From Onthophagus taurus (taxonomy: Eukaryota; Arthropoda; Insecta; Coleoptera; Scarabaeidae): a stretch of DNA of 64,000 nucleotides. The position numbers and the translations under genes are program-made. The notes below the pieces were generated by a model. That model saw only the letters and a program-made list of their open reading frames with translations, had not been told where the DNA came from and did no database searches. This document shows, one piece after another, positions 4,679 through 57,261 of this stretch. The DNA lies in assembly GCF_036711975.1 (NCBI RefSeq), contig NC_091972.1, positions 253,001-317,000 of the forward strand, read 5' to 3'. The number at the start of each line of letters is the position of its first letter. Within the stretch, counting starts at the first letter, position 1.

Positions 4679-4815
4679 TAAGGCACGGAACTTTTGTGAC
4701 AAAAGAATACGATTTCCCCCTCCACTTGTTCTCAATGGCTTCCTAGAAAACTAGCCAATGAGAACAAGTGGAGGGGGGAAATCGTATCGTTTTGTTACAA
4801 AAGTTTCGTGCCCTA
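4679..4815. mobile_element. 137-bp hAT-type MITE inside mariner copy 1
   Basis: A nearly perfect foldback begins TAAGGCACGGAAC and ends GTTTCGTGCCCTA, flanked by the 8-bp direct repeat GTGATAAC (4671-4678 and 4816-4823). The other mariner copy shows the uninterrupted site (ggtgataaccatac), which confirms insertion and an 8-bp target duplication as in hAT elements. The same ends bound the 6.4-kb satellite element at 34659-41086. The arms, ~55 bp each, include a pyrimidine tract (cccctccacttgttctca). Confidence 0.85.
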
Positions 4816-8517: not shown

Positions 8518-8610
8518 AACAATTAGTTGCTTGAAACGATAGAATTCAAGATGAATCACGTTAAAAGTTTTCAAAATTTGTGTTGGAAAATTTAGAAAGA
8601 TAACGGAACC

Positions 8611-8646: not shown

Positions 8647-8668
8647 AATTAAAGAAACGGAGTAAAAC

Positions 8669-9065
8669 ATGTCCAATTTTAAAATCAAATTTGTTTTGAT
8701 TCAATTCTTGTTGTTTTGTGTTTTAAACTGTTTAACTTTTGAGAATGATTCTAAAAATGGTAAGTGATAACTTTTTCGTTTCTAATTCATCTAATTTAAA
8801 ACTGGTTACTTTAGGAAGCGACGCCGGATTTTCGCGTTATAAAAGACAAGAAGAAGAAGATGAGGAAATACCAGAGCTGGTCCCTCGAGCATTATACACC
8901 ACGCCAAAGGGGGATTATAAATACGAACCGATTACGTATTGCGATCCACTTCATTTTCTTTTTGCGGGTTTTCTAGTAAATCACATCGTATGTGATCATT
9001 ACTGTGGAACAAAAAAAGCTTTTGGAAAAGGTAGCTGTCAATCAGGAAAATGTGTTTGCTATTAA
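8669..9065 (+). CDS. Defensin precursor (insect CS-alpha-beta antimicrobial peptide)
   Basis: Two exons, 8669-8759 and 8815-9065, join in phase to give 113 residues. Exon 1 encodes a hydrophobic signal peptide (IKFVLIQFLLFCVLNCLTF). Exon 2 starts with a pro-region containing a basic YKRQ site followed by an acidic stretch; a further arginine lies nearer the mature domain. The C-terminal domain has six cysteines spaced C-x16-C-x3-C-x10-C-x4-C-x-C, and NHIVCDHYC matches the insect-defensin NH..C..HC signature. Such peptides are secreted to act on bacterial membranes. The stretch between the KR site and the first cysteine is longer than usual, so the exact cleavage point is unclear. The next gene, convergent, is a galectin-domain gene. 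AATAAA lies 37 bp past the stop. Confidence 0.9.
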
Positions 9066-21151: not shown

Positions 21152-24100
21152 ATGTCTTATCCAGAACCGTCTCCGATTGAACAGTTGAATTGGTTGATAC
21201 ACGTCCAACATGTTAGAGGTGAAATTGCTAGTTGTAAACGATTGATTAAGGAAAATATCACAAAAAGCCATGGGAAGAATGATTATGCTTACCACAAAGA
21301 AGTAATTAAAAAAAATAATCATTGTAATCAATAATCATACAATTATGTGATCAATAGGTATATTTTTAGAGTAGGCTATGAAATTTACAGTTTAATTAAA
21401 AAAAATTGAAGATTATTGGATTAAAAGTAGCCTACTTTAAAATATATTTTTGATGATATGGTAATTGGATCGCGTTACACATCACTTGACTAAGCGACAT
21501 TTTATCGGTTTTAGAGATTTTTCATGCTGTCTGGTAGGTAAAGGTGTAACTTATCTTAGAAAAAATGCAGAATACCGAAAAACCTAAAACACTATTTGTT
21601 TTAAAAGATAAAACTAAGCGCCAATCATGTTATACGATTTCAAGTCGGATTTGCATCATACAACGTCTAAAAACCGACTTACTTAGATAGACCAAGAAAT
21701 TCTACAATAAAAAAAATAGATGGACCTACAATTTCGGGCCAATGTCGTTTTCTAGATATTAGTATAAAATTAAAAGTTTATGTCTTTTATTTTATATACC
21801 TAGAATTTAAGTCTAACTAGTTTCGGCCCTTGGCCATCTTCAGAGACTCTACAAATAGATTAACATCTCTCATCTTATCCATTTTACAAACGAAAGCGAT
21901 AGGTAGCGCTAGTTAGCATAAAAATCCAGAACTAACACTAGACCTAGAACTAGAAAGTTTCGGGTTTAGCCGTGCGTCTGAAGACTAATAAAAGAATAAT
22001 AAAATTGTGGCGATGGATAAGAGAAAGTAAAAAGGTCATCAAATTTTAGTACAGCAGAAAAGAACTTGCTGATAGATTTGGCAAACAAATATAAAAATGT
22101 CTTTAAAGTGAGTCAAAACTTGACGCATTTATCTCAAAAAACCAAAGTTCGAACTTTGAACTTTTAATTTTGACATATTTGTCAACTTTATAACAAATCC
22201 TTTAAAATAAGTCCAAACTCGACATATTTACCTTTAATATTAACGGAAATACAATCACTTCCGGTTTGAAACGTCAGAGTCAATTTTCATGTATTTGTCA
22301 TCTTCATTAAAAAACCTTTAAAATGAGTCCAAAGATGACGCACTTATCTCAAAAAACAAAAAAGTTAGAATAAGAAACGTTAAACCCGAAGTTAGCAACA
22401 ATGAAGATAACAATTTAATTTATAAATATTAATACCAACCTTAATTTTTGATTTTTTTTAATTATATTTTTGATTTTGTGACAAATATTAAGACATTTTA
22501 TAAAAATTAAGAATATGTTAAAATGACATTGACAATTCAAACCGGAAGTTGCTTATATCTCGAGTAATATTGGAATTAAACGTATCATGTTTGGACTCAT
22601 TTTAAAGAACTTTTCATGACGATTACAAATATGTCAAAATTCACGTTGACATTTTTAACCGGAAGTTGACCATAACTTCATTAATATTGAAGATAAATAT
22701 GTCGTGTTTGTACTCATTTTAAAGGATTTTTAGTGTAGATTGCAAATATGTCAAAATTGAGGTTGACATTTTAAACCTGAAGTTAGTTATCATGTAATAT
22801 AAGTTTTAAAACTGAAGTTAATCTAGTGTTAGTCACTTTGTCGCACTTTCTTTTTATTTTTAACGTGTTTTTTGGGTCATTTCACAAACTTGGATTATTT
22901 TTTTCGTAAAACAATTTTCAATAGTTTTAGCCTGTCTATTCTGAGAAGTCTTATATTTTTAGAGAGATGAAAACGAACATCCCGTTTTTCTCAACATGAT
23001 TCATGTGTCGCCTAGTCAAGTGATGCATAACGCGGTCCAATTAATAAGTAATAATACTGTGTCACGGTATATGAGGACTTATTGATTCTATGTTGAAATT
23101 AATAATTTGTTATTTATGGATTATTTTAGGGAACGATATTGCGTGAAGAAGGTAAATTGCAGGAAGCCTTAGAAGCATTTCAGATTTGTCATAAATTAAA
23201 TCAAGATGATACGGGACATGTGAAGGAAATTGCAAAATGTTTGTAAGTCTTCTTAGTGTTTATGACCTAAGGAGGAGAAAAATGCTTTATGCACCCTAAC
23301 CCCGGTCAGATGTGCGCGTGATGAGGAAATTTTATCCAACCGGGAGTGTGGGACTCCGCCGGCGACAGGGATTTTATGCCGGCCTCTTGATGGTTACACC
23401 ACTAAAAAACTCCCCCTTTTTTCCTTGCCTATTGGATCTTGGCAGTCCGGACCAGCTTACGCATTTCAGCAGATTGCCTTGGCGATTGTGTTGATACTTT
23501 TCTTTTTCATTTCAATATTCTTCTCTTCGTGTCGGTTCTTGTTGCTTCTCTCGGCAAAATCCATGAGATCTTCTTTCTGTATCCCTCATTATTCCTGGAC
23601 AGGGGGGAGGGGAAGAGCTCCTCCCCATCCTCCTCTTCTTATGCAGACTCCTCTCATCGGATATATGTCATCCCGGCCCTCCTCCTATGTTGAATGGTTT
23701 CTGGATTAGGGGAGTCAAAACTGCCTCCTCCGCTTCTCTTCTTATATGTACCACTCTCTTCGAATATATGGCATCCTGGTACTCTTCCTGTTTCGGATAG
23801 TTTCCTCCCGCGGGTGAATTTCAATGTACAACACAAAAACGACCTATTAATTTTTTAATAACATAGATTACCTTATCATACCTGGATTGGGGGAGACAAA
23901 AGCTGCCTCCCCGCTCCTCTTCTTAGTTCTTCTTCCTTTCTTCTTCTCTCTTCCATCTCTTTTATCTTCATCACCTCTCTTAAGTAATTCATTATGCTAT
24001 CACGCTGCTTTTCGTTGCTCATAAGAAGGTCGGCTACGTTTTCTTGCTTAACGGGTTCTCCCACTTGTATATCCATTTCCATCCTTTCCTTTTCGAAGCG

Positions 24101-27100
24101 ACAACATTCAAATATTGTGTGTCGAGGTGTATCCGTCTCTTGACATCCGAACCAACAGTTGTCTGACTCAATCTTCTTTATCTTCGCCAAGTATGCTGCG
24201 TACACGCCATGCCCAGTTATTGCTTGGGTGGTATAATAATCTACACGAGGCCCTTTACTTTGCCATTCTCTTACATTCTTTATGAAAGTCTTTGCCCATC
24301 CCTCATAATGGTTCCATCTCTCTTGCCACTTTTTATACATGTCTTCTCTGTTCTGTTCTACTTTTTCTCCCCTTGTCTCCCAATTTCTACTTCTTTCCCA
24401 GGCCAGTAAATCCATAGGTGCGTGTCCGGCCAATGTACCTACAGCTTCCGTCGCTACCGTGCGATATGCCGATGTTACGCTTATTACCATTTTTCTTTCA
24501 ATTATTCTCAACATTTTAGCATATTTCTTGTACTTAAGAGCACTTTCCCAAGCTGAGGCTCCGTAGAGAGTGACCGATGTTATAACTGTCGCTAATAGTT
24601 TTCTGCGAGCATAGCTTGGACCTCCTTTTCTAGGCATCAAACGCGTTAGGTTATTATACATTTTTCCGGCTTTCTCTGAGACTTTTTTGATATGCGCCGT
24701 CATGCGTAGATCCTTGTCTAAATGGACTCCTAAGTACTTTACCGATTCTGAGCTTTTAATGATTTGTTGGCCTACTCTAAGCTGTATTGTTTTCAGCTTT
24801 CTTCTTCCTTCCAAAATCACTATCTCGGTCTTCTCTTCTGCTAGTTGTATACCCAGTTCTCTCATATTCTCCGCCACCCTCCGTACGCAGTATCCAGCTT
24901 TATCTCTCATCGCCTCTTCAGATTTCGCTCTCACCACTACTGCCAAATCATCTGCGTAGGCTACCAGCGAGACTCCTTCTTCCACCTTACTTTCCACCAC
25001 CTGGTCGTAGAAAATGTTCCAAAGTGTTCCTCCTAAGACTGACCCCTGCGGGACTCCGCACGTCATTACCTCCTCTCTCCCCCCTGGCAGAACTATCCGT
25101 CTATCCGATAAATAAGATCTTATTATCTTTCTAATTTGCATTGAGAAACCTTTCTTCTCCAATGCTCTGTTAGTGTTTATGACCTAGAAATAGACAATTT
25201 AATGATACATAACAACTAGAACTAGACTAACACTAGACCTAAAACAAGAAACTAGAACTAACGCTAGACCTAGATCTAGAAACATTCGGATTTAGCCGCA
25301 CGTCTTTCAAGACGGCTAGACCCGAATGATTCTATTTCTAGGTCTAGTTCTAATTTTAGTTCAATAAGAATATGCAACAATCTAGCACTGCATAACAATT
25401 GAAACTGTCACTACTGTTACTGTATTAAACTACCACTATGCCTAGAACTAGAATCATTTGGGTTTAGCCGCACGTCTCTAAAGACGGCTAAACCCCAATG
25501 ATTCTAGTTCTAGGTATAGTGTTAGTTCTAATTTTACACTAGCACTATTACTATGTAGAACTAACACTATACCTAGAACTAGAATCATTTGGGTTTAGCC
25601 GCACGTCTCTAAAGACGGCTAAACCCGAATGATTTTAGTTCTAGGTATAGTGTTAGTTCTAGTTTTGCACTAGCACTATTACTAGAACTAACACAAGACC
25701 TAGAACTAGAAGCATTCGGGTTTAGCCGTCTTTAGAGACCCATGGCTAAACCCGAATGTTTCTGGATCTAGGTCTAGTGTTAATTCTAGTTTTCATTCAA
25801 TAAAAATATACCACCATGTAACGCTGAATAACAATTAAAACCAGAATTAGCATTAGACCTAGAACTTGAAACATTCGGATTTAGCCGCACGTCTCTCAAG
25901 ACGGCTAAACCTGAATGATTCTAGTTCTAGGTCTTGTGTTAGTTCTAGTGATAATGTAAAATATTATGTAAACATTCGGATTTAGTCGTACGTCTCTCAA
26001 GACGGCTAAACCCGATTGATTCTAGTTGTAGGTCTTGTTAGTTTTAGTGATAGTGCTAGTGCAAAACTAGAACTAACACTATCACTAGAACTAACACAAG
26101 ACTTAGAACTAGAATTATTCGGGTTTAGCCGTCTTGAGAGACGTGCGGCTAAATCCGAATATTTCTAGATCTAGGTCTAGTGTTAGTTCTAGTTCTGCAC
26201 TAACACTATCACTAGAAAAGTCATTTTGATTCATGAGCGTCAGAACCTGAAAGAGACTAAGGACTTTGCTCTCATTACACCTAATTATTAAACCCTTTTT
26301 CCTCTACGTCAAGAATTCAGTAATAAAATCTTTTAATGTATTATTTATATTAAAACGATTAAATTAGAAAAATACGTTTGTCGTATTTTATAGAAAATAA
26401 TGTCTTTGTCATTTTCAAAGGACATCAAGTTCTTTTGTTTGCATAATCTCGGTCTATTAAATCCCGTATTGTCCAATACCAGAATAAGACAATGGTTGTG
26501 TCACAAAATAATCCTTACAGAAAGGATTTCTATTATCTTTCTTATTAGTGTTGTCCTTCATGTTTCCATGTATCTAAATTATTTAATAAACTAATGTAAA
26601 GAAGAAACTTGATTCAAAATTTCTCTCCGGCGCTATTGAAATCGTGAAAAAGTTTTAATGATGTATTTAAAATCGTTTCCGAACGATCTTTTAAGCTTTT
26701 AATACTTTTTTTAGGTATTTGCTTCAACGATACAGACTGGCCTTGGAGGCGTATTTGGAAGCGGAGAGAGCGTCTACGAAACCCGACTGGGAAATATTTT
26801 ACAATATCGGTGAGTCTGCCGACTTCACAATATCGTACACAGGTAGGAAGGGCGCGCGATTTTGTTGTTTTTTAATTTTGCGTCGGCGGCCGTTACATAA
26901 CTGAACGTAATTTAACCCCGGCTTACCGGGTCACGTATTATTAGTTCCGCCGAAATTTCACGCCTCGACGTCTACGTGGCTCATTAAAGATTTGAAGATT
27001 GTGAGGCCCGGTCGTTGGATGATTTAGTGCAAACTAAATGTGGAGCTCCGGGCAGAATCCATTATCTTTTAGTAGAATTCAATAAGCTGTATGTTAAGCA

Positions 27101-30100: not shown

Positions 30101-33100
30101 TCTACCTAGGTAAATTTTTTTTAATGTATTTATCATCTGCATAAAAAAATATTAGCAAAAATGTAAAGGGGGTGGTTACGTTTAGTAATTTAGAAGAGTA
30201 GGTTGAAAGTACAAATAGAGGATCAAAACGTGCCCTATTATGAGTTAAACATATTCCCCAAATTTCATTTTCCTAGCGTTTATGGTTTTTGAGAAAAAGA
30301 AATTAAACCAAAATTTTCCGCCATTTTTGGAGGGGTATAGCTCCTTAGGGGAGCCGAAGTCGCCCATGGTTCATATTTCATATATCAAAGTACCCTTAAA
30401 ATTCACTAAAGAATCACCCCTTGAAGTTTGTTGCAGTCATTCAGATACACCCTGTATATAAAGTATTGTATAGATGTATTGTAGTAATATCCACTGCTAT
30501 TGATTTTTGATCTCTTATACTTCGGAATTAATCCTCTGTAGCGCAAGATATCAAAATTTAAAAATAAGTTGTGAAAAATGTTAATCGAAAGAAATAGGAA
30601 AGATCTATTTTTTTTGTTTATCTGTAAAAAAATAGAATTAAAGGGAGTGTGACAGAAATGTTACACCGCATCAAAACGGTAACTTAACTTAGGTGAAATA
30701 GTCTGAAACAATTGTTGTGTTTATTGTAGCACACATTTCTCGCACATTGTTTGTGAGACACCAGAGCATTTAGAAAATTTGTAGCGTATTCTTTTTTCTG
30801 TTCAAACAGGCCAGTGTCCTGTCGAATCTTGCCTGATTGCCAATGGAGAAACATGTTGTGCTGGACCTTTGTGTCGTTTTGCTTGAATTTCGTTTTTGAT
30901 AGATAGACGGCTTTTCAAATTTGATGGCACACAAAGTTGTTGTAATTTCAAGCCGAAAATCAGCCGAGTTCTAAGGTTTATCCTGCAAGTCCTTTGCCTT
31001 ATGAATTCTTTTGTAAAGAAGCCATACTTTTGCCCAATAAATGGTAAAACATTCGAACATGCCATCTTTTGCTGCGAAGCTGTATTTTGTAGCGTCCCAT
31101 GATGCTATCGATTAGATCTACACCACCCATGTGGCGATTGCTTGGTCTTCTTGTTATACTTCCTCACCTGAGCTTTTGGCATTTCTCCCACAACAGTTGA
31201 TGCCAAATTAACTACTTTGTTATCTTCCCAGGATACGGTTGCTACATCTACACCATTGACATCAGCAACATACTCAACAGAATACCCTTTGTCTTTCTTG
31301 GATATGCCTTTGTGTGTGAATAATCTGAAATCCTGTTTCGACGTACACTACCAAGACTCAGTATACCATTTTTTGACAAGTATTCTATCAATGGCAAAGA
31401 TGTTAAGTAATTGTCGAAATACAATCATTTCACGTGACAGACGCATAACAACATTTGAGGATGCGCTTAGATCAGGTTCGTTGGGTAGTAGCACATTTTC
31501 TGAGCCAGTTTCAGGTTCGATTTTGTATGCAAATCCAGAGACTCCACCACTAAGAACGTAAATCTTATAGCCCCATTTGTAAGGCTTTTTCGGGTTATAT
31601 CTTTTCCAGTTATTCCTTGATTTCGTAGAGTATATTTGCTCATCGACGCAAAGATATTGCTCTAAAGGAATTTTGGCAAAGTTTTTGTTCAATTTTTGAA
31701 CAATTGGTCTGAGTCTGAATAGTCTGTCAAATTTCGGATGTTCGTGGGGCAAGTTTTGTGAATTGTCATTAAAATGAATGAATTGGCGAATTTTTTCAAA
31801 TATCTTTATTTCTTGAATTATAGGAGTTCCAATGGTGCCATTCCAATGACTAGTAACTCGAGGAAGATGAATCAAAGACATGATATACACTATGCCAATA
31901 AATTGCTGAATATCTGTGGTGTTAATTGAACTAAAATTAGAACTAACACTAGAAGCTTTCGGGTTTTGCCGTGCGTCTTTTAATAAAAGGTTTGACGTTT
32001 CGGATGCCATGTTGCAACCTTCTTCAGAAACTGGTTCGAAATGGCCACTTTTCTTAAAAGACGCACGGCAAAACCCGAAAACTTCTAGTGTTAGTTCTAA
32101 TTTTAGTTCAAATATATAAATTAGTCTGTGTTGCAATAAAATCAATCAAATCTTGGGAAAATAAAAACAAGAAGATCTTTGTGTCAAGCTCTAAAATATC
32201 TGCTGGAAAATTTTCATTCCCTAGAAAACACAACTGTTGCTCATTCAAAAGCAGACTTTTCTTCTTCCATCGCAGGTTGAGTTTTTGTGGCTTTCTATGG
32301 CATCCCACGGATTGGGTTGGTTGCAATTGAGATGGCACAGCAGCAGTAGATGGAGACGGATTAGGTTCGCTGCCTTCTAAGTTATGAATAATCTCATCAA
32401 GGTTCACTTCATCGTCTTCATTTTCATCACTAGAAAACTACTGCTCTTGCTCCATTTCATTTTCAGCTTGATAATCTGGATCTGCAACACTGTCATCGTC
32501 ATCTTCCATGTCATCTTCACTGTCTTCGAAAGTATTCAACATCTCGGCTATTTTAAAGCAAATGAACCATATTATATTATCAACCTCTTCACAAAGTAAA
32601 ATTTACCCACGTTAGGCAATGGGACACTTCAAGACCATCGAAGGCATACAATTATATAAAAACCCACATTACACCATAAAGTACATGTAGCTTACTAACC
32701 TTGTATATTTTCGAAAAACACACAGTATTAATCACGTTTTCTTATATTTTTTACTGATTTTTCAAAAGCACATAGGCAGATCCCACCCGATCTGTCGACG
32801 AACAATAGCCATCGCGCGGCCCTAACGCCATCTACATTTTTTGTCTTAAAGTAAGTCGATACATCGGTTTGTTGCAGATAAGTCACACTGACTCAAAATT
32901 GGTTTGAAAAAATGTGTAAATTTTGGTAGGCAAAGAATAGTTTGTGACAGAAATATTACACCACGCTACAGAGGGTTAAGCACTGTTGATTCTAAATTCA
33001 TTTTGGTCGCAAAGCTTTTCATTGAATATGTTGATGCCAGGAGTAACTTTGTTATCAATTTTTACGTTTAAGTTTTCTCTTCCTTTATTTTGTTCGTGTT

Positions 33101-34654
33101 TGGCGCGTATACACTTATAAGGTGATATTAATGGCCCGCGGTTAATCGGCACTTTAACATACTTATTTATTCATGATGTGGATCCTTGTTATCAATATAT
33201 GTATATGAAAATAATTAAACGTATATTTATGCTTTTATTGATATATTAAGTTTTACACTCTGGCTGCACTGCTAGGTGCCATTTAGCACGCGATTTTCTG
33301 CAATTTGTTCGCTCCCGAGAAAAACAAGTAGTAATCCAGACCGTTAAATGTTAATGTTTGAAAATAATCCCTGCAAGAAGCATCTTAGCTTTACCACATA
33401 AAAGAAAAACCGATATTTTATGTACTACATAGCATAACCAAGGACGAAAGCCTCCGAAGATGGCGTAGATCGCCGAAACGCGTCAGGTAGAGTGTAAAAC
33501 TTAATATATTAATAAAAGCACCTTATAACATCAAGTATATTTATCACAGATAAAATTACGAAAAATATTATGAAAATCTAAAATGTCCATTTATGTTTTT
33601 TCTAGTTACATGAAGAATACGATGTCGCTTTAACAAAATACAAATTGGCTATACAGACCCAATCTGATTCGATAGCATTATGGAATAATATAGGAATGTG
33701 TTTTTATTCAAAACAGAAATATATTGCGGTAAGTAATTGAATTTGATGCATTCAGAAATATTGACATATTAAAAATTCGCCAAATGGAAAGATTGAAAGG
33801 ATAAATATTTTCTCTTTTACGTTCGGAATTAAAATCTCTGTTGCATATTATAAAAACATTTTTATGAATAGTTGAATTGAATAACGTTATAACAATGTTT
33901 GTTATGTTTTCATATCGATTTGTACGTTTAACCGAAATGGAAGCCAATAAAAATTTTACGGTTCAATTTTGCCGCGTGTAAAATTAAGTTGAAATGGTTC
34001 AATTTTTTTTTTGCTTGTTTTTATATAAAAATATTTTATTTCTTTTTTTTTAGGCGATTGGTTGTTTAAAAAAAGCTTTATGGTTGTCTCCTTTAAATTC
34101 ACGTGTTTTGTTGAATCTGGGGCTTATTCATTTATCAATTCAACAACCTGCATCTTCTTTTAATTATTTATGTGCAGCTACTAATTTAAAACCTGATTTG
34201 GCGTTAACTTATGTTATATTAGCATGTAAGTGAATTATTTAAAAAAAACGGAAATTTTTTTTAAATATAATTTATTTTAGGTGCGTTATTTTCTTTGGAA
34301 GATAATGAAAGCGCTTTAAGAGCTTTAAAGCGGGCTTTTTCTTTAGCACCAGATCAACCGTTGATTCAATTAAATACAAGCGTTTTATTGTACCATAATG
34401 GAAATTATACGGAAGCTAAGAATTTGTTAGAAAAATTTGAAGCAAGTAATTTTAAAAATGAAGAAATGTTTAAACTTGCTGCTAAATTAAAAGTTGTGTT
34501 ATCAAAATTAGTAAAAGAGGAAAATCAAGATGAACCTGAATATGCAGAAATTAATGAAGAAGAAAATGTTCGAGGTTTAGAAGTGTTTGGTGGTGGAATA
34601 GAACATGTTGAAAAAACGTTATCTGATACTGAATTGGATCCAGATGAAGTATAA
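21152..34654 (+). CDS. BBS4: Bardet-Biedl syndrome 4 protein (TPR, BBSome subunit)
   Basis: Eight coding exons (21152-21301, 23130-23242, 26715-26809, 27285-27447, 27533-27686, 33606-33728, 34054-34225, 34281-34654) join in phase to 447 residues; human BBS4 has 519. BBS4 is a TPR subunit of the BBSome, which sorts membrane cargo in and out of cilia. Diagnostic matches are EQLNWLIHVQHVRG near the N-terminus, LQEALEAFQICHKLN, KPDWEIFYNI, YDVALTKYKLAIQTQ, LWNNIGMCFYSKQKYIAA, LNLGLIHLSIQQPASSF and LVNL-type LIQLNTSVLLYHNGNYTEA. The C-terminus is acidic. Introns hold an R1-like LINE (intron 2), a palindrome array (intron 2) and a foldback MITE plus a piggyBac (intron 5). The stop codon overlaps the target duplication of a 6.4-kb element. 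Reading frame intact. Confidence 0.95.
21302..23129. repeat. BBS4 intron 2, left part: hairpin arm and inverted ~115-bp units
   Basis: Positions 21895-21990 hold a hairpin-family arm (actagaaagtttcgggttta then gccgtgcgtc). About 22080-22800 is the ~115-bp unit family seen at 6540-7310, here in opposite orientation (e.g. catgtttggactcattttaa). A hammerhead-like motif lies at 21810-21848 on the minus strand. The remainder is AT-rich intron. Confidence 0.6.
21810..21848 (-). ncRNA. Hammerhead-ribozyme-like motif
   Basis: Read on the minus strand: AGTCT, CTGAAGA, T, GGCC-AAG-GGCC, GAA, ACTAGT, T, AGACT. This supplies stem I (AGTCT/AGACT, 5 bp), the CUGANGA core, a 4-bp stem II with 3-nt loop, the GAA core, a loopless palindromic stem III (ACTAGT) and a permitted H17 (U). 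A loopless palindromic stem III is typical of hammerheads in Penelope-like elements, which are thought to work as dimers. One extra T separates the core from stem II, as also seen at 33451. Confidence 0.55.
23270..25169 (-). mobile_element. 5'-truncated R1-like LINE with 17-bp target-site duplication
   Basis: The element is flanked by the direct repeat ttagtgtttatgaccta (23253-23269 and 25170-25186). It runs antisense to BBS4, in intron 2. Its 5' end (25169) is cut inside the reverse transcriptase domain. The 3' part beyond the ORF contains imperfect tandem repeats: 23880-23925 (ctggattgggggagacaaaa) is echoed at 23700-23745 and 23597-23640. There is no clear poly(A) tail, in line with R1-clade elements. 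Confidence 0.85.
23876..25162 (-). pseudogene. LINE reverse transcriptase, C-terminal 428 residues (open)
   Basis: The frame is uninterrupted. GVPQGS is at residues 36-41, the catalytic YADD at 69-72 and KYLGVHLD in the thumb at 142-149. A C-terminal finger C336-x3-C340-x7-H348-x4-C353 follows, as in R1/LOA-type LINEs. The endonuclease and first RT motifs are missing by 5' truncation, so it cannot support its own retrotransposition. The lack of stops suggests a recent insertion. Confidence 0.85.
25196..26226. repeat. Palindrome (hairpin) array 1, in BBS4 intron 2
   Basis: About ten units are built on a core such as cattcgggtttagccg, cacgtctctcaaga loop, then cggctaaacccgaatg. Outer arms of gaactaacactagacctaga and its complement extend the pairing. 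Orientation alternates, and arms drift slightly. It starts 10 bp after the LINE's right-hand target duplication. Confidence 0.9.
26227..26714. other. BBS4 intron 2, right part
   Basis: AT-rich unique sequence with a good acceptor (ttttttttag) before exon 3 at 26715. Nothing else is seen. Confidence 0.5.
26810..27284. other. BBS4 intron 3, moderately CpG-rich
   Basis: Unique sequence with more CpG than the average of the window (e.g. gggcgcgcgattttg, gcgtcggcggccg). No gene or repeat recognised. Confidence 0.4.
27687..29222. other. BBS4 intron 5, left part
   Basis: The donor after exon 5 reads GTTATT, weaker than GTAAGT, but phase and homology support it. The stretch that follows looks unique and AT-rich. 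I see no exon or repeat. Confidence 0.45.
29225..30454. mobile_element. 1.23-kb foldback MITE (Tc1/mariner type) in BBS4 intron 5
   Basis: Ends are CAGGGTGTATCTGAATGACT and its complement, flanked by TA (29223-29224, 30455-30456). Inverted similarity continues almost to the centre, ~500 bp or more per arm, with small indels. There is no transposase. The ends are related to, but distinct from, those of the two long-armed mariners. Confidence 0.9.
31926..32111 (-). mobile_element. Solo Penelope-type terminal hairpin inserted in the piggyBac ORF
   Basis: A 186-bp palindromic insert starts ttgaactaaaattagaacta and ends with the complement. The arms carry ttcgggttttgccgtgcgtc; the centre matches the tip of the Penelope-like element arms at 43203-43244 and 44790-44831. 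It splits the piggyBac frame between NLYI and TTDIQQF, so it came after the piggyBac. Confidence 0.8.
31990..32031 (-). ncRNA. Hammerhead-like motif of the solo Penelope terminus
   Basis: Same sequence as in the Penelope arms: stem I GTTT/AAAC, CTGAAGA, stem II GGTTGC/GCATCC with one T-T mismatch and loop AACATG, GAA, palindromic stem III ACGT, and C17. See the entry at 44790 for the layout. Confidence 0.5.
33228..33520. repeat. Short inverted-arm element with a hammerhead-like motif
   Basis: gcttttattgatatattaag with following ttttacactc (33231-33260) is repeated inverted at 33490-33520 (gagtgtaaaacttaatatat taataaaagc). The right part carries a hammerhead-like core at 33451-33487. It sits in BBS4 intron 5, just upstream of exon 6. 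Confidence 0.6.
33451..33487 (+). ncRNA. Hammerhead-like motif with one core substitution
   Basis: CCT, CCGAAGA, T, GGCG-TAGAT-CGCC, GAA, ACGCGT, C, AGG. Stem I is 3 bp, stem II 4 bp with a 5-nt loop, stem III is a loopless palindrome. The core reads CCGA in place of CUGA (U4 to C), which should impair or abolish cleavage. The arrangement equals that at 21810-21848. Confidence 0.45.
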
Positions 34655-34769
34655 TCATTAGGGCACGAAATTTTTGTAACAAAACGATACGATTTCCTCC
34701 CTCCACTCGTTCTCAGCAGAAAATTTCGTACAAAAGCTGTTCTAAATTAAATTCTAAAACAATTTTCTC

Positions 34770-34775
34770 AATAAA
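34770..34775 (+). terminator. First poly(A) signal available to BBS4, inside the satellite element
   Basis: AATAAA 116 bp after the stop. Many more AATAAA copies occur in the array. The native 3'UTR must lie beyond 41094, so transcripts probably end within the element. Confidence 0.45.
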
Positions 34776-34789
34776 AAATATGTAACAAT

Positions 34790-37700
34790 TTTTTTGAGGC
34801 TATGTTCTTAATTATTTATCAAATCAAAAATTTTTATTAACAATATTTGTTTAAAATTACTTCAGGAACAGTGTTTGTTAATAAAATTTTTTGCTAACTT
34901 GAAATTTTAATTTCCCTCTGAATAGTATGGTACAAAAATTAATATTTTTGAGGTTATATCCTTATTGTTGATTTAATCAAAAAATTTTGTTAATAAAATT
35001 TGTTTAAAATTACTTCAGGAACAGTGTTTGTTAATAAAATTTTTTGCTAACTTGAAATTTTAATTTCCCTCTGAATAGTATGCTATCAAAATTAATTATC
35101 TCAATAATTATTGTTTCTATCAAAAAATGTTTTAAATAAAACTTGTTTCAATTTCGATTTTGAATCAATTATCTTAATAAAAAAATTTTACATCTCTATT
35201 AATTAAGCATCTAAGTATAATTATGTATAAAAACGGAAAAATTATTATTTTGAGGTTATCTCCTTAATTATTGATTAAAGCAAAAGAAAATGTTAACAAA
35301 GTTTGTTTAGAATTGTTTCAGGTACAATTTTTGTTAACACAATTTTTTTCTAACTTAAAATTTTAATTTTCTTCTGAATAGTCTGCTACAAAAATTAATA
35401 TTTTTGATTTTATATCCTTATTGTTGATTTAATCAAAAAATTTTGTTAATAAAATTTGTTTAAAATTACTTCAGGAACAGTGTTTGTTAATAAAATTTTT
35501 TGCTAACTTGAAATTTTAATTTCCCTCTGAATAGTATGCTATCAAAATTAATTATCTCAATAATTATTGTTTCTATCAAAAAATGTTTTAAATAAAACTT
35601 GTTTCAATTTCGATTTTGAATCAATTATCTTAATAAAAAAATTTTACATCTCTATTAATTAAGCATCTAAGTATAATTATGTATAAAAACGGAAAAATTA
35701 TTATTTTGAGGTTATCTCCTTAATTATTGATTAAAGCAAAAGAAAATGTTAACAAAGTTTGTTTAGAATTGTTTCAGGTACAATTTTTGTTAACACAATT
35801 TTTTTCTAACTTAAAATTTTAATTTTCCTCTGAATAGTATGCTACAAAAATTAATATTTTTGAGGTTATATCCTTATTGTTGATTTAATCAAAAAAATTT
35901 TGTTAATAAAATTTGTTTAAAATTACTTCAGGAACAGTGTTTGTTAATAAAATTTTTTGATAACTTGAAATTTAAATTTCCCTCTGAATAGTATGCTATC
36001 AAAATTAATTATCTCAATAATTATTGCTTCCATCAAAAAATGTTTTAAATAAAACTTGTTTCAATTTCGATTTTGAATCAATTATCTTAATAAAAAAATT
36101 TTACATCTCTATTAATTAAGCATCTAAGTATAATTATGTATAAAAACGGAAAAATTATTATTTTGAGGTTATCTCCTTAATTATTGATTAAAGCAAAAAA
36201 AATGTTAACAAAGTTTGTTTAGAATTGTTTCAGGAACAATTTTTGTTAACACAATTTTTTTCTAACTTAAAATTTTGATTTTCCTCTGAATAGTATGCTA
36301 CAAAAATTAATATTTTTGAGGTTATATCCTTATTGTTGATTTAATCAAAAAATTTTGTTAATAAAATTTGTTTAAAATTACTTCAGGAACAGTGTTTGTT
36401 AATAAAATTTTTTGCTAACTTGAAATTTTAATTTCCCTCTGAATAGTATGCTATCAAAATTAATTATCTCAATAATTATTGTTTCTATCAAAAAATGTTT
36501 TAAATAAAACTTGTTTCAATTTCGATTTTGAATCAATTATCTTAATAAAAAAATTTTACATCTCTATTAATTAAGCATCTAAGTATAATTATGTATAAAA
36601 ACGGAAAAATTATTATTTTGAGGTTATCTCCTTAATTATTGATTAAAGCAAAAGAAAATGTTAACAAAGTTTGTTTAGAATTGTTTCAGGTACAATTTTT
36701 GTTAACACAATTTTTTTCTAACTTAAAATTTTAATTTTCCTCTGAATAGTATGCTACAAAAATTAATATTTTTGAGGTTATATCCTTATTGTTGATTTAA
36801 TCAAAAAAATTTTGTTAATAAAATTTGTTTAAAATTACTTCAGGAACAGTGTTTGTTAATAAAATTTTTTGATAACTTGAAATTTAAATTTCCCTCTGAA
36901 TAGTATGCTATCAAAATTAATTATCTCAATAATTATTGCTTCCATCAAAAAATGTTTTAAATAAAACTTGTTTCAATTTCGATTTTGAATCAATTATCTT
37001 AATAAAAAAATTTTACATCTCTATTAATTAAGCATCTAAGTATAATTATGTATAAAAACGGAAAAATTATTATTTTGAGGTTATCTCCTTAATTATTGAT
37101 TAAAGCAAAAAAAATGTTAACAAAGTTTGTTTAGAATTGTTTCAGGAACAATTTTTGTTAACACAATTTTTTTCTAACTTAAAATTTTGATTTTCCTCTG
37201 AATAGTATGCTACAAAAATTAATATTTTTGAGGTTATATCCTTATTGTTGATTTAATCAAAAAATTTTGTTAATAAAATTTGTTTAAAATTACTTCAGGA
37301 ACAGTGTTTGTTAATAAAATTTTTTGCTAACTTGAAATTTTAATTTCCCTCTGAATAGTATGCTATCAAAATTAATTATCTCAATAATTATTGTTTCTAT
37401 CAAAAAATGTTTTAAATAAAACTTGTTTCAATTTCGATTTTGAATCAATTATCTTAATAAAAAAATTTTACATCTCTATTAATTAAGCATCTAAGTATAA
37501 TTATGTATAAAAACGGAAAAATTATTATTTTGAGGTTATCTCTTTAATTATTGATTAAAGCAAAAAAAAATGTTAATAAAGTTTGTTTAGAATTGTTTCA
37601 GGAACAATTTTTGTTAACACAATTTTTTTCTAACTTGAAATTTTAATTTCCCTCTGAATAGTATGCTATCAAAATTAATTATCTCAATAATTATTGTTTC

Positions 37701-40700
37701 TATCAAAAAATGTTTTAAATAAAACTTATTTCAATTTCGATTTTGAATCAATTATCTTAATAAAAAAATTTTACATCTCTATTAATTAAGCATCTAAGTA
37801 TAATTATGTATAAAAACGGAAAAATTATTATTTTGAGGTTATCACCTTAATTATTGATTAAAGCAAAAAAAATGTTAATAAAGTTTGTTTAGAATTGTTT
37901 CAGGAACAATTTTTGTTAACACAATTTTTTTCTAACTTGAAATTTTAATTTCCCTCTGAATAGTATGCTATCAAAATTAATTATCTCAATAATTATTGTT
38001 TCTATCAAAAAATGTTTTAAATAAAACTTGTTTCAATTTCGATTTTGAATCAATTATCTTAATAAAAAAATTTTACATCTCTATTAATTAAGCATCTAAG
38101 TATAATTATGTATAAAAACGGAAAAATTATTATTTTGAGGTTATCTCCTTAATTATTGATTAAAGCAAAAAAAAATGTTAATAAAGTTTGTTTAGAATTG
38201 TTTCAGGAACTATTTTTGTTAACACAATTTTTTTCTAACTTAAAATTTTAATTTTCCTCTGAATAGTATGTTACAAAAATTAATATTTTTGAGGTTATAT
38301 CCTTATTGTTGATTTAATCAAAAAATTTTGTTAATAAAATTTGTTTAAAATTACTTCAGGAACAGTGCTTGTTAATAAAATTTTTTGCTAACTTGAAATT
38401 TTAATTTCCCTCTGAATAGTATGCTATCAAAATTAATTATCTCAATAATTATTGTTTCTATCAAAAAATGTTTTAAATAAAACTTGTTTCAATTTCGATT
38501 TTGAATCAATTATCTTAATAAAAAAATTTTACATCTCTATTAATTAAGCATCTAAGTATAATTATGTATAAAAACGGAAAAATTATTATTTTGAGGTTAT
38601 CTCCTTAATTATTGATTAAAGCAAAAAAAAATGTTAATAAAGTTTGTTTAGAATTGTTTCAGGAACTATTTTTGTTAACACAATTTTTTTCTAACTTAAA
38701 ATTTTAATTTTCCTCTGAATAGTATGTTACAAAAATTAATATTTTTGAGGTTATATCCTTATTGTTGATTTAATCAAAAAATTTTGTTAATAAAATTTGT
38801 TTAAAATTACTTCAGGAACAGTGTTTGTTAATAAAATTTTTTGCTAACTTGAAATTTTAATTTCCCTCTGAATACTATGCTATCAAAATTATTTATCTCG
38901 ATAATTATTGTTTTTATCAAAAAATGTTTTAAATAAAATTTGTTTCAATTTCGATTTTGAATCAATTATCTTAATAAAAAAATTTTACATCTCTATTAAT
39001 TAAGCATCTAAGTATAATTATGTATAAAAACGGAAAAATTATTATTTTGAGGTTATCACCTTAATTATTGATTAAAGCAAAAAAAAATGTTAATAAAGTT
39101 TGTTTAGAATTGTTTCAGGAACTATTTTTGTTAACACAATTTTTTTCTAACTTAAAATTTTAATTTTCCTCTGAATAGTATGCTACAAAAATTAATATTT
39201 TTGAGGTTACATCCTTATTGTTGATTTAATCAAAAAATTTTGTTAATAAAATTTGTTTAAAATTACTTCAGGGACAGTGTTTGTTAATACAATTTTTTGC
39301 TAACTTGAAACTTTAATTTCCCTCTGAATAGTATGCTATCAAAATTAATTATCTCAATAATTATTGTTTCTATCAAAAAATGTTTTAAATAAAACTTGTT
39401 TCAATTTCGATTTTGAATCAATTATCTTAATAAAAAAATTTTACATCTCTATTAATTAAGCATCTAAGTATAATTATGTATAAAAACGGAAAAATTATTA
39501 TTTTGAGGTTATCTCCTTAATTATTGATTAAAGCAAAAAAAAATGTTAATAAAGTTTGTTTAGAATTGTTTCAGGAACTATTTTTGTTAACACAATTTTT
39601 TTCTAACTTAAAATTTTAATTTTCCTCTGAATAGTATGCTACAAAAATTAATATTTTTGAGGTTATATCCTTATTGTTGATTTAATCAAAAAATTTTGTT
39701 AATAAAATTTGTTTAAAATTACTTCAGGAACAGTGTTTGTTAATAAAATTTTTTGCTAACTTGAAATTTTAATTTCCCTCTGAATAGTATGCTATCAAAA
39801 TTAATTATCTCAATAATTATTGTTTCTATCAAAAAATGTTTTAAATAAAACTTGTTTCAATTTCGATTTTGAATCAATTATCTTAATAAAAAAATTTTAC
39901 ATCTCTATTAATTAAGCATCTAAGTATAATTATGTATAAAAACGGAAAAATTATTATTTTGAGGTTATCACCTTAATTATTGATTAAAGCAAAAAAAAAT
40001 GTTAACAAAGTTTGTTTAGAATTGTTTCAGGAACAATTTTTGTTAACACAATTTTTTTCTAACTTAAAATTTTAATTTTCCTCTGAATAGTATGCTACAA
40101 AAATTAATATTTTTGAGGTTATATCCTTATTGTTGATTTAATTAAAAAATTTTGTTAATAAAATTTGTTTAAAATTACGTTAGGAACAGTGTTTGTTAAT
40201 AAAATTTTTTGCTAACTTGAAATTTTAATTTCCCTCTGAATAGTATGCTATCAAAATTAATTATCTCAATAATTATTGTTTCTATCAAAAAATGTTTTAA
40301 ATAAAACTTGTTTCAATTTCGATTTTAAATCAATTATCTTAATAAAAAAATTTTATATCTCTATTAATTAAGCATCTAAGTATAATTATGTACAAAAACG
40401 GAAAAATTATTATTTTGAGGTTATCTCCTTAATTATTGATTAAAGGAAAAAAAAATGTTAACAAAGTTTGTTTAGAATTGTTTCAGGAACAATTTTTGTT
40501 AACACAATTTTTTTCAAACTTAAAATTTTAATTTTCCTCTGAATAGTATGCTACAAAAATTAATATTTTTGAGGTTATATCCTTATTGTTGATTTAATCA
40601 AAAAATTTTGTTAATAAAATTTGTTTAAAATTACTTCAGGAACAGTGTTTGTTAATAAAAATTTTTGCTAACTTGAAATTTTAATTTCCCTCTGAATAGT

Positions 40701-41010
40701 ATGCTATCAAAATTATTTATCTCGATAATTATTGTTTTTATCAAAAAATGTTTTAAATAAAATTTGTTTCAATTTCGATTTTGAATCAATTATCTTAATA
40801 AAAAAATTTTACATCTCTATTAATTAAGCATCTAAGTATAATTATGTAGAAAAACGGAAAAATTATTATTTTGAGGTTATCTCCTTAATTATTGATTAAA
40901 GCAAAAAAAAATGTTAATAAAGTTTGTTTAGAATTGTTTCAGGGACAATTTTTGTTAACACAATTTTTTTCTAACTTGAAATTTTAATTTCCCACTGAAC
41001 AGTATGCTAT
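34790..41010. repeat. Satellite of ~152-bp monomers in 456-bp trimeric units
   Basis: The anchor ctatcaaaatta occurs at 35083, 35539, 35996, 36451, 36908, 37363, 37666, 37968, 38424, 38880, 39336, 39792, 40248 and 40704, and as a cut copy at 41007. Spacing is 455-457 throughout except three intervals of 302-303, i.e. three or two monomers. Copies are nearly identical, and some pairs of units share private variants (e.g. 35996 and 36908), a sign of block duplication. Confidence 0.95.
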
Positions 41011-41094
41011 CCTTTTAATCAATATTTTCTGAGAACAAGTGGAGGAGGGAAATCGTATCGTTTTGTTACAAAAGTTCCGTGCAATAATAATCAT

Positions 41095-43244: not shown

Positions 43245-43473
43245 TGGTTCGAAGTGACGAGATCAAAAAATCGGTAACTATATATAAGTCGGAAAAAACT
43301 AATTAATAATCAGTTAACGGTAATTTCAAACTAATTAATAACTAATTGCGTCGCGTCCGGTGTGAGGCGGGAAGAGGTCTTCGTGTTCACCACCATCTTC
43401 CATGTTCTGCTAAGCTCCCAGCCATCCTCTCTGTTGACGTTATTTTTATGTCGGTGAATCTCTATGGCTTCTC

Positions 43474-44690
43474 TTGTCAGTCTTTGGTAATATGTTGGTA
43501 AGTTTCGATGTGGAATCCCTTTTTACTAGGGTACCAGTTAAGGATGCTGTAGAGGGTCTTCGCCGAAAACTCATTCCGGAGGGTTTACCAGGATACGTGC
43601 CAGATCTGGTGGAGTATTGCTTATCGTCGACGTATTTCAGCTGGAAAGGAGAATTTTACGAGCAGTTCGAAGGGGCAGCCATGGGATCTCCACTATCGCC
43701 AGTTATAGCTAATTTCTACATGGAATTATTCGAAGAGGACGCTTTGAAGAAGAGCCAGTGGAAACCAAAACTATGGCTCCGACATGTGGATGACACGTTT
43801 GTGATATGGCAACATGGTCAAAAACGGCTCCAAGAGTTCTTGGATCACTTGAACTCTCAACATCCTATGATTAAGTTCACCATGGAAACAGAAACTGCCA
43901 AAAAACTACCTTTCCTAGATGTGTTGGTCACCAGGACGACAAATGGAGATATAGAACTTGGTGTATACCGAAAGAAGACCCATACCAACAGGTATTTACA
44001 GGCATGTTCACATCATCATCCCCAACAGAAGAGGTCCGTGATCCGTACATTATTTCAGCGAGCAGCGAGACTATGTGAAGGAGAGAACTTGAAGAAGGAG
44101 CAACACTTTCTACGAGGCGTGCTGCAGAAGAATGGATACACTTCGAGGGACATCAAGCAGCGAAAGCAGAAAGAGGACACGGTAAGTACAAAACCACTTG
44201 GATTTATCTGTCTTCCCTATGTTTCAGGTGTAACGGAACGAATTGCTAGGCACCTCAAGAAGAACGACATCGTAGTGCGGTACGGCACGGTCAGCAAAAT
44301 TCGGAACACACTCCCGATAGCCAAGGACAAACTAACTCCATTAAAAGGAGCGGGACTATCGTGTAGTTGTGGGAAGGTTTATGTTGGCCAAACTGGACGC
44401 AACGTCGAGTGCCGCTTCAAGGAGCATGAGAGGGATGTAAGGCTGAAGAAGATCCAGCAGTCGGCGGTTGCGGAACATTGCCATGCAGAGGGGCACCGAA
44501 TAGACTTCGAACAAACAAAGGTGCTGGCTAGGGACAACAGATACTAACAAAGACTGACAAGAGAAGCCATAGAGATTCACCGACATAAAAATAACGTCAA
44601 CAGAGAGGATGGCTGGGAGCTTAGCAGAACATGGAAGATGGTGGTGAACACGAAGACCTCTTCCCGCCTCACACCGGACGCGACGCAATT
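43474..44690 (+). pseudogene. Penelope-like reverse transcriptase and GIY-YIG endonuclease, truncated
   Basis: The open frame 43474-44547 (357 residues) is 5'-truncated; true RT homology starts at about 43486 (LVSFDVESLFTRVPV). Motifs are GAAMGSPLSP (68-77), the catalytic HVDD (104-107, where Penelope usually has YVDD), LPFLDV, and the endonuclease start CSCGKVYVGQTGR (297-309). The GIY tripeptide that should precede CSCGK is missing, as if a few residues were deleted. An in-frame stop after DNRY is followed by further homologous sequence (QRLTREAIEIHRHKNNVN) to about 44690. The copy is defective. Confidence 0.85.
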
Positions 44691-51094: not shown

Positions 51095-53290
51095 ACGGGT
51101 TTATAGCCGCAGGTCTCTCAATACGGATAAACCCGAATGATTCAAGTTCTAGGTCTTGTGTTAATTCTAGTTTTACACTAGTACTATCACTAGAACTAAC
51201 ACTATACCTAGAACTAGAAACATTCGGGTTTAGCCGCACGTCTCTTAAGACGGCTAAACCCAAATGATTCTAGTTCTAGGTCTTGTGTTAGTTCTAGTGA
51301 TAGTGCTAGTGTAAAACTATCACTAACACTAGACCTAGAACTAGAAAGTATCGGTTTTAGCCGTACATCTTCAACTTCACAACTTCTAGTGATAGTGTTA
51401 GTGCAATACTAGAACTAACACTAGAGCGAGAACTGGAAACATTCGGGTTTAGCCGCACGTCTCTCAAGATGGCTAAACTCGAATGATTCTAGTTCTATTT
51501 CTAGTATTAGTTCAAGTGACAGTGCTAGTGTAGAACTAAAACTACCACTAGACCTAGAACTAGAAACATTCGGGTTTAGCCACACGTCTCTTAAGACGGC
51601 TAAACCCAAATGATTCTAATTCTAGGTCTTGTGTTAGTTCTAGTGATAGTGCTAGTGTAAAACTATCACTAACACTAGACCTAGAACTAGAAAGTATCGG
51701 CTTTAGCCGTACATCTTCAGACTTCACAACTTTTAGTAATAGTGTTAGTGCAATACTAGAACTAACACTAGAGCGAGAACTGGAAACATTCGGGTTTAGC
51801 CGCACGTCCCTCAAGACGGCTAAACTCGAATGATTCTAGTTCTATTTCTAGTATTAGTTCAAGTGACAGTGCTAGTGTAGAACTAAAACTAACACTATAC
51901 CTAGAACTAGAAACATTCGGGTTTAGCCGCACGTCTCTTAAGACGGCTAAACCCAAATGATTCTAGTTCTAGGTCTTGTGTTAGTTCTAGTGATAGTGCT
52001 AGTCTAAAACTATCACTAACACTAGACCTAGAACTAGAAAGTATCGGCTTTAGCCGTACATCTTCAGACTTCACAACTTTTAGTGATAGTGTTAGTGTAA
52101 TACTAGAACTAACACTAGAGCGAGAACTGGAAACATTCGGGTTTAGCCGCACGTCCCTCAAGACGGCTAAACTCGAATGATTCTAGTTCTATTTCTAGTA
52201 TTAGTTCAAGTGACAGTGCTAGTGTAGAACTAAAACTAACACTATACCTAGAACTAGAAACATTCGGGTTTAGCCGCACGTCTCTTAAGACGGCTAAACC
52301 CAAATGATTCTAGTTCTAGGTCTTGTGTTAGTTCTAGTGATAGTGCTAGTCTAAAACTATCACTAACACTAGACCTAGAAAGTATCGGTTTTAGCCGTAC
52401 ATCTTCAGACTTCACAACTTCTAGTGATAGTGTTAGTGCAATACTAGAACTAACACTAGAGCGAGAACTGGAAACATTTGGGTTTAGCCGCACGTCCCTC
52501 AAGACGGCTAAACTCGAATGATTCTAGTTCTATTTCTAGTATTAGTTCAAGTGACAGTGCTAGTGTAGAACTAAAACTAACACTAGACCTAGAACTAGAA
52601 ACATTCGGGTTTAGCCACACGTCTCTTAAGCCGGCTAAACCCAAATGATTCTAGTTCTAGGTCTTGTGTTAGTTCTAGTGATAGTGCTAGTCTAAAACTA
52701 TCACTAACACTAGACCTAGAAAGTATCGGTTTTAGCCGTACATCTTCAGACTTCACAACTTCTAGTGATAGTGTTAGTGCAATACTAGAACTAACACTAG
52801 AGCGAGAACTGGAAACATTTGGGTTTAGCCGCACGTCCCTCAAGACGGCTAAACTCGAATGATTCTAGTTCTATTTCTAGTATTAGTTCAAGTGACAGTA
52901 CTAGTGTAGAACTAAAACTAACACTAGACCTAGAACTAGAAACATTCGGGTTTAGCCACACGTCTCTTAAGCCGGCTAAACCCAAATGATTCTAGTTCTA
53001 GGTCTTGTGTTAGTTCTAGTGATAGTGCTAGTGTAAAACTAGAACTATCAGAAGACCGAGAACTAGAATCATTCGGGTTTAGCCGCACATCTCCTAAGAC
53101 GGCTAAACCCAAATGATTCTAGTTCTAGGTCTTGTGTTAGTTCTAGTGATAGTGCTAAGTGCTAAGTCTTAAGACGCACGGCTAAACCCGAATGTTTCTA
53201 GTTCTAGTGTTAGTTCTAGTTTTAATTCAATAAAAATATGCAACATAGTGATATCTTATGTTAACTAGCGCTACTTACCACTGTCACCAA
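51095..53290. repeat. Palindrome (hairpin) array 2 with 347/341-bp higher-order period
   Basis: Hairpin cores like those at 25 kb are arranged in a higher-order unit: equivalent points fall at 51421, 51768, 52115, 52456 and 52797 (steps 347, 347, 341, 341). Each unit has two complete hairpins (arms ~32 bp, e.g. acctagaactagaa.cattcg, loop ~14 nt) and one diverged arm (gtatcggctttagccgtaca). The right end has the ataaaaatatgcaacatagt tail seen at other array ends. Minus-strand frames run open through it but are repeat shadows. Confidence 0.9.
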
Positions 53291-55816: not shown

Positions 55817-56841
55817 AGCTGTGTTTGGTACACTTGCTATAAATACTCCTAGTGTAGCAAGTGTAGTGCAGTTGACAACTCTCAGTTTTCAACACATTTT
55901 CAAAGTGCATAAGTGTAACAATTTTAGGTGTTTGGTAAAACGGATTATTATGACAGTTATAGGTTATGTAAACTTTATTATTTCTGTAGGAAGTTGAATA
56001 ATTTATTATTGATCAAAGAATCAAGATGAATAAATCAAAAAAGGAAATGGTGCCTGTAGTGACCCTATTAAAGTCTGACACCGAAAGTGAAGACAATGAT
56101 ATGATTTTTGAAGAATTGGACAGCGATGATGAAGAAAATGTATTTTTACTTTTAAGTAAAAAAGATAAAAGAACTTGCATCGATAAATACTTTGAGGATG
56201 TAGTTCCCAAATATTCTGATGTACAGGTGTCCCAATTTCGATGTCCACATAGGCTATCTCCGAAACTAAAAGAGATAGAAAAAAAGTAGCTTACATGTCA
56301 TGATCTCGTTTTTCAAGAAAATGCTAATGCCGAAAACTGCGAACAGCTATCGTCTTTTGTTTTCGCCCTATCGGCAAAAACTGAAAATTTTGCGAAAACG
56401 ACAATCGCGAATATCTCACTTATTATCAAAGATGGAGTATTATAAATAAAACATTATATGGGCAACTTTTTACGAAGAATTCAGTGGCGTAGGTAGAATT
56501 TTTTTCCCATCTTTTATTTTCGAGATTTGAGACATAACTTTATTTTTTTAAATGGAAACCATAGTTGGCTATGACCTAAAATAATTTGTTATTTTCTTCT
56601 GATAACAAATATATATAGTTTGTGGGGTATATTTCTTATAGTTATTGAATAATTAACAAAAATTCATTTTGTTCTATCTAAAACTAATGTATGTATTTAA
56701 AAGTTAATGTTGCTATGGTGATAACCATACATACTATGATGGAACATAATGTATCAATTTTTTTTGTTCTTTCTAAAACTATTGTATGTATTTAAAACTT
56801 AATGTTGTTATGGTGATAACAATGCCACGATGGAAAACATT

Positions 56842-57261
56842 GGGTACGTTCAGCAGGTGTCAACAGTTGAATTAAATCAGTCAGCTAGTTGTATGAGCTT
56901 TAATACAGCGGAACGAAATCGGCTGAACAAGCAATTGAGAATTAGCAGTTCAGCATAACCTAAAACTATGGCCAACAATAATATTTTTGAAAATTTTGTG
57001 TTATTGCAAGAGATAATGGATGATGATGTTGATTTTAAGGCTCATTTCATTTTATACAGTTCTGCCAGTTTTCAAAATTAAAGGGGAGAAACAAAAAATA
57101 TTAATCCTAACCTAGAATTTCACAACCGCTGACAAACTAAGCGCAGATTACTTACGCTGAGATATTTACTAAACTGCTGCGTAACAGCGCTGACTTAGCA
57201 TATCGTTCAGCCGCGACTGCTAATATAGCAACTTAACAGTTGACACCGGCTGAACGTGCCC
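56842..57261. mobile_element. 420-bp MITE with 3-bp ATT duplication inside mariner copy 2
   Basis: Ends GGGTACGTTCAGCAGGTGTC and the complement of GGGCACGTTCAGCCGGTGTC. ATT lies on both sides (56839-56841, 57262-57264). Mariner copy 1 supplies the empty site (gcattgtttccaatt), which proves the insertion. A relative lies at 17860-18290. TSD length and TIR suggest PIF/Harbinger, though ATT is not the usual TWA. Confidence 0.85.

Follow-up and report, generated by a model that had tools for sequence, protein, structure and literature searches.

The window analyzed here, a 64,000-nucleotide stretch of the Onthophagus taurus genome (contig NC_091972.1, positions 253,001 to 317,000 of the forward strand), contains a single unit of 6,428 bp bounded by inverted ends (34659-41086) and occupied largely by tandem satellite repeats. 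Comparison with relatives elsewhere in the assembly indicates that this unit very probably represents a family of nonautonomous hAT-like DNA transposons with a satellite array as its core, which the element carries and sometimes rebuilds. The element and the DNA adjoining it comprise the following features.

34271..34654, + strand: 3′ terminal exon of a BBS4-like tetratricopeptide repeat (TPR) gene, from an open reading frame (ORF) and homology
34651..34658, no strand: left target-site duplication (TSD), 8-bp ATAATCAT
34659..34715, + strand: left terminal inverted repeat (TIR), 57 nt, starting TAGGGCACGAAATTTTTGTAAC
34716..34786, + strand: nonsatellite left segment (L), ~70 nt, found in 17/17 aligned elements
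34787..41009, + strand: satellite array, Tandem Repeats Finder (TRF) periods 153/303/456, 41 monomers, mainly in 456-bp B-C-A trimers
34787..34932, + strand: edge monomer B′, the first of the array, followed mainly by B-C-A trimers
35390..36301, + strand: 912-bp block of six monomers, copy 1, 99.8% identical to the adjoining block
36302..37213, + strand: 912-bp block of six monomers, copy 2, directly after copy 1
37671..38274, + strand: two C-A dimers that break the trimer order in mid-array
41010..41029, + strand: nonsatellite right segment (R), ~20 nt, found in 15/17 aligned elements
41030..41086, − strand: right TIR, end sequence TATTGCACGGAACTTTTGTAAC
41087..41094, no strand: right TSD, 8-bp ATAATCAT, a perfect match to the left copy

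A sequence-only reading of the window had proposed one 6,428-bp element with inverted ends and a perfect 8-bp duplication, built of ~152-bp monomers in 456-bp trimers with occasional dimers, and this description holds: both TSD copies and both TIRs were located, the TIR measuring 57 nt, and the TRF periods and the typing of 41 monomers agree with the repeat structure. Its further claim that only satellite lies between the ends needs amending; the array fills most of the interior, but nonsatellite stretches are present on both sides, ~70 nt long on the left and ~20 nt on the right. The monomers are of three types, A and B being 89% alike and C 61–62% alike to either. In the window copy, the 12 trimers of order B-C-A share 95.8–100% identity with one another, compared to ~61% between A and C; the monomers run head-to-tail, and multimonomer units are more alike than their constituent monomers, as in a higher-order satellite. 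The array has a single orientation between short TIRs and is therefore not a foldback structure of the Tetris kind. No ORF of at least 120 amino acids occurs inside the element, and an RNA-family search of the whole window returned no matches.

Pattern searches of the single assembly (290.8 Mb), with mismatches allowed and with control patterns, recovered 547 matches (273+274) to a 24-nt TIR pattern (≤2 mismatches; none for the reversed-pattern control), 155 to a 27-nt L-segment pattern, 127 to a right-junction pattern, and 1,445 to a 24-nt C-monomer pattern (each ≤3 mismatches; controls zero). The sequence-only reading had a hAT-type transposon whose interior turned into satellite; the array is confirmed, but with 155 L matches it constitutes the regular core of a whole family and not an accident of one miniature inverted-repeat transposable element (MITE). 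The ~152-bp monomer recurs genome-wide, and if every 456-bp trimer holds one C monomer, the C matches correspond to roughly 0.66 Mb of satellite, or 0.23% of the genome. Among the C-monomer matches listed (100 of the 1,445, on sequence C1 and part of C2) there are 25 clusters, all 25 with a listed TIR or L match no more than 3 kb away, so that in this sample the satellite is found only with the element. Noncoding, with TIRs, TSDs, and many copies (547 TIR and 155 L matches), the family has the properties of a MITE or other nonautonomous element. Its satellite forms, at 0.6–6.4 kb, are larger than the usual MITE size.

Copies were examined at 20 loci of 10 kb with the highest-ranking left-end matches, two C5 loci with arrays, five loci from the transposase search, one TIR pair, and the window; the elements were mostly picked by left-end similarity to the window copy and are not a random sample. 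Nineteen of the satellite elements examined possess both ends; they range from 637 to 6,428 bp, and each holds monomers between its ends, contrary to the outcome that the sequence-only reading had said would overturn it. Perfect 8-bp TSDs flank 17 of the 19, L033 has one mismatch and L021 none, compared to 1/6,859 trials in which 8-mers taken at displaced positions in the flanks match exactly. Monomers were typed in 17 of the 19 (all except L021 and L044), and number from 3 to 41 per element, often a multiple of three; all 17 monomer strings begin L-B, and R is deleted in L033 and L035, the two aligned elements that lack it. The interval 206-8733 of L034, with a one-mismatch TSD, was excluded from the counts, since an inner element at 4578-8733 has a perfect TSD. 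Six left ends in the DNA examined are unpaired (two in L017 and one each in L023, L031, L034 at 206, and L036).

The 34 flanks of 17 elements yielded one matching pair (70% over 138 bp) and are otherwise unmatched, indicating independent insertions. Many unrelated sites hold the array framed by common end segments and target duplications. When the two flanks of L024 are joined, they align with two repeats in L021 that have no interruption, at 97.7% (target altered by 1 nt) and at 92% (target exact), and a further candidate match spanning an empty site is that of L028 to itself (75%). The joined flanks of L020, a 1,058-bp satellite element, match the window itself around one exact copy of the target.

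22738..22886, + strand: related empty site of L020, with a single copy of the target GTTATCAT

Arrays are hard to assemble and the evidence comes solely from the assembly, which would allow the 6.4-kb copy to be a collapse or misjoin; however, its perfect TSD lies in one contig and the same architecture recurs in 18 other elements, making such an artifact extremely unlikely.

A satellite-free element with the same ends had been reported from the window by the sequence-only reading, and was found there with its own TSD.

4679..4815, + strand: 137-bp MITE with the same ends and no satellite; TSD GTGATAAC at 4671-4678 and 4816-4823

This MITE is nested in a larger repeat, and empty relatives occur at 56577-56842 and 5704-5885. 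The 137-bp MITE and its closest copy have nearly the same 500-bp flanks (L013 versus L014: left 98.6%, right 99.8%), and L015 and L016 have the same 60-nt junctions, reversed. Judging from these junctions, the window MITE and L014–L016, the three best other copies in the genome, look like four near-identical copies of one insertion amplified within the larger repeat, as opposed to separate jumps. A MITE of 160 bp with the same TIRs and no satellite is present at L037. Satellite-free forms of both sizes lend some support to the view that each array arose or inserted separately within a MITE already in place, but 17/17 typed elements share the L segment and the B edge monomer at sites with unrelated flanks. 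Independent events would not be expected to yield one phase and one edge variant, so the shared left edge counts against separate origins, which we consider very improbable.

The edges of the arrays behave differently from their interiors. First-B monomers are 95.8% alike across elements versus 90.6% to the remaining B monomers in the element that holds them (17 elements), and last-A monomers are 96.1% alike across elements versus 93.9% to their own interior (10 elements ending in a full A). Interior monomers show the opposite relation, with identities within and between elements of 0.958 and 0.917 for A, 0.970 and 0.953 for B, and 0.970 and 0.949 for C; the within-element value is the higher one in 32 of 33 element-by-type rows, all except C in L025, and the pattern also holds inside one subfamily. 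Interior monomers are therefore more alike within than between elements, whereas edge monomers are common to elements. At L029, two 18-monomer elements lie ~1 kb apart with differing TSDs and flanks; the two have an identical last A monomer, and the first B and the first C are each best matched in register, whereas identical interior variants occur at other positions. This pair looks like a local jump, in either direction, followed by reshuffling. Three TIR pairs occur within 12 kb at G000 C3:30049028-30060671, two of them 18-monomer elements, a possible case of local jumping.

Equalization of the arrays mainly by gene conversion between or within copies, in place of monomer gain and loss in situ, would account for the identical out-of-register variants of the L029 pair, and the high-identity blocks could be conversion tracts. 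Monomer number nevertheless ranges from 3 to 41, so length change must occur too, and for all three types the mean identity within the window array (A 0.971, B 0.983, C 0.985) exceeds its best match to any other typed element (0.967, 0.980, and 0.980, respectively). We regard conversion as the principal agent as unlikely, and favor turnover of monomers within individual elements.

Whether the satellite expanded inside the element or travelled with it as cargo were the two alternatives offered by the sequence-only reading, and both are supported, in different copies. Private changes in the ends of an element were compared with divergence among its interior monomers. L025 has 1/197 private end changes (0.5%) and an array divergence of 5.5%, and L024 has 2/203 and 5.1%; nearly unchanged ends around a diverse array are most simply explained if the arrays were already old at landing, that is, moved as cargo. 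The window copy has 13/200 private end changes (6.5%) and an array divergence of 2.1%, and if the ends are expected to change by half of what the array diverges, a count this high has a probability of 2.7e-07 (0.0016 for the left end alone). Its monomers are more alike than expected from the change in its ends, and its two 912-bp blocks are 99.8% alike, suggesting that the array was most simply rebuilt after landing. Both conclusions, that arrays are carried during transposition and that some are rebuilt afterwards, are well supported by these sequence comparisons, if short of proof.

Several observations weigh against this interpretation. Fifteen elements have one interior monomer pair or more; in five of them (L020, L024, L025, and both L029 copies) the divergence of the array is more than twice the end change, and in ten it is below that, so turnover looks commoner than untouched cargo. 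The tests on single elements are weak (binomial 0.027 for L025 and 0.11 for L024). Counts for the R ends of L033 and L035 are raised by deletions; judged by their left ends alone (2/117 and 0/118), both would pass for young insertions holding diverse arrays. An old source copy could also have passed on some of the private end changes, which would then be older than the insertion itself. No significant correlation links length to left-end change (rho 0.39, p 0.12), or array divergence to length (p 0.89) or left-end change (p 0.76), suggesting that age alone does not determine growth. Whole-array identity of the L029 pair is 0.962 on-register and 0.959 off-register, and arrays are not in register between elements; collinearity of whole arrays was accordingly rejected, there being no real on-register excess, and only the edges correspond. 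Finally, some arrays on C5 are without one or both ends (L042 and L043).

hAT TIRs start with YA-G, and the ends of the family agree, with YAGGG at 31/34 ends and exceptions TACGA (L034 left), CAGTG (L020 right), and TATTG (window right). The 8-bp TSDs expected of hAT elements flank 17 of the 19 satellite elements and both MITEs examined (window and L037). Twenty target duplications, from 18 satellite elements and two MITEs, follow NTNATNAN, with T2 in 18/20, A4 in 20/20, T5 in 20/20, and A7 in 19/20. This fits the target preference nTnnnnAn of the hAT transposon Hermes, as given in excerpts of two papers (PMC10368747, PMC2803484), with a central AT in 20/20 in addition. Telling against hAT membership, no transposase with these ends was found at four long-ORF loci and one TIR-near match (PF05699, 150 scored of 1,076 candidates), and two exclusion-pattern searches for partner ends gave only 4 and 1 variant ends. 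A DNA transposon superfamily other than hAT that also makes 8-bp duplications would sit well with that result, but not with the target motif or the YAGGG termini, and we judge it improbable. The label hAT given by the sequence-only reading is thus matched by the TSDs, the target motif, and the ends, though not by a transposase with these ends at the loci read, and on the strength of termini and targets the family likely belongs to hAT.

Candidate partners were rejected individually. The PF05699 match 2 kb from a TIR at L037 is an unrelated hAT relic beside the 160-bp MITE, the 627-aa hAT family at L038 has other ends (TAGAGATGG/TAGGGATGT) and TSD TTATTTAG, the long-ORF hAT loci L039–L041 have no such ends, and a possible coding copy at C5:57861-60903 proved to be another satellite element. 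The best TIR-like stretches in the long-ORF loci are unpaired 13-of-19 matches in L038 and L039. At G000 C5:10270071-10271157 (− strand), three hAT dimer-domain matches follow one another at intervals of exactly 446 bp and may represent a tandem array formed from hAT coding sequence.

We propose that a hAT transposase supplied in trans would cut and paste the element via its ends, ignoring the interior, while unequal exchange, slippage, or gap repair among monomers would add or drop monomers, often one 456-bp trimer. An insertion could regrow into its own long homogenized array, up to ~9.3 kb; a length of ~9.3 kb, taken from end coordinates alone, is found at C1:1879849-1889185, which has both end signatures. 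The window copy would be one such element, having landed at the stop codon of the BBS4-like gene. The upstream ORF (34271-34654) matches BBS4 in PDB (E=1.2e-05) and contains a TPR_19 domain (E=3.6e-09), and its TAA stop (34652-34654) falls within the left target duplication, so that the coding frame still ends there and the element now occupies the sequence after the stop. The insertion may possibly affect the mRNA of this gene.

A bolder reading, which we hold tentatively and at somewhat less than even chances, is that a higher-order satellite lives here as a transposon, lacking any home array, spreading as cargo, and being reamplified at landing sites sheltered by the element ends, with the end-less C5 arrays as escapees toward free satellite. 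C5 contains 16/79 exact L matches on 5.1% of the genome (binomial 2e-06). The array at L042 begins mid-monomer without TIR or L and extends for >9 kb (an 895-bp insert counted) to the end of the piece, and L043 has arrays without the left segment; such arrays are candidate decay products that may be becoming free satellite. The ~895-bp insert in L042 (4237-5133) lies within a monomer, and the monomer coordinates on its two sides overlap by 2 bp, as expected of a TA-type insertion. Also on C5, six exact L matches occur within 57 kb (G000 C5:9518311-9575050) among dense element ends, perhaps through nested insertions.

If the satellite does live as a transposon, every insertion would repeat the birth of a satellite. 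The origin and spread of satellites in euchromatin have mostly been argued from single snapshots, and the family offers a route, open to testing, by which satellite DNA could spread among genes. With 155 L matches, known boundaries, a shared starting edge, and varied array lengths, its copies are natural replicates for the rates and modes of array growth, which could be measured directly, in at least one case beside a gene.

The window contains other repetitive sequences. Tandem arrays with periods near 127–131 and 341–347 bp and a palindromic TAGCCGCACGTC..GACGGCTAAACCC core occur in AACTAG-rich DNA at 51104-53157 and 25428-25793, and a tandem array with nested periods of 97/101 and 351 bp at 18416-19529. 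A DDE_Tnp_1_7 transposase relic lies at 31348-32145 (− strand), and reverse-transcriptase ORFs at 23876-25183 (− strand) and 43438-44547 (+ strand), the end of the latter resembling, by eye, the GIY-YIG part of a Penelope-like element. Six-unit tandem runs of TCAGG are absent from the genome and one of TTAGG is present, inside C3.

Drosophila is said to harbor hAT-type MITEs, named Mar, which are not known to have a satellite core. The closest published parallels that we located come from other element classes, and are described here from excerpts of the cited papers. In Xenopus tropicalis, the Tc1/mariner MITE miDNA4 contains a satellite as one monomer or a variable array, for which growth within the element has been modeled (Scalvenzi and Pollet 2014, as described in PMC12628747 and PMC9659126). 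The window family is like miDNA4 in having a MITE interior that is a satellite array of variable length, with a model of growth inside the element, and differs in its hAT-like ends, its three-monomer higher-order unit, its shared edge monomers, and in copies by which transport and regrowth can be told apart. Tetris and DAIBAM of Drosophila virilis are a satellite-bearing nonautonomous element and a MITE with common termini, and longer satellite arrays derive from the element (PMC4079207). The pairing of a satellite-bearing form and a MITE with the same terminal ends is repeated here; the repeats of Tetris, however, lie inside its inverted repeats in a foldback-like arrangement, whereas the window family has one central core between 57-nt TIRs. 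Xstir MITEs of Xenopus, Pearl/CvA of bivalves, and DINE Helitrons have central or MITE-borne tandem repeats that are likewise dispersed by transposons, and differ in element class (PMC12628747, PMC9659126). A hAT-like MITE with higher-order trimers was not found in the open literature searched, mostly at title and abstract level, or in the available portions of two reviews, and such a case may be described elsewhere. Satellite-bearing MITEs are thus already known from miDNA4, Xstir, Tetris, and Pearl, and, relative to what these sources describe, the Onthophagus family adds hAT-like ends, a higher-order unit, and transport of the array that can be separated from its regrowth.

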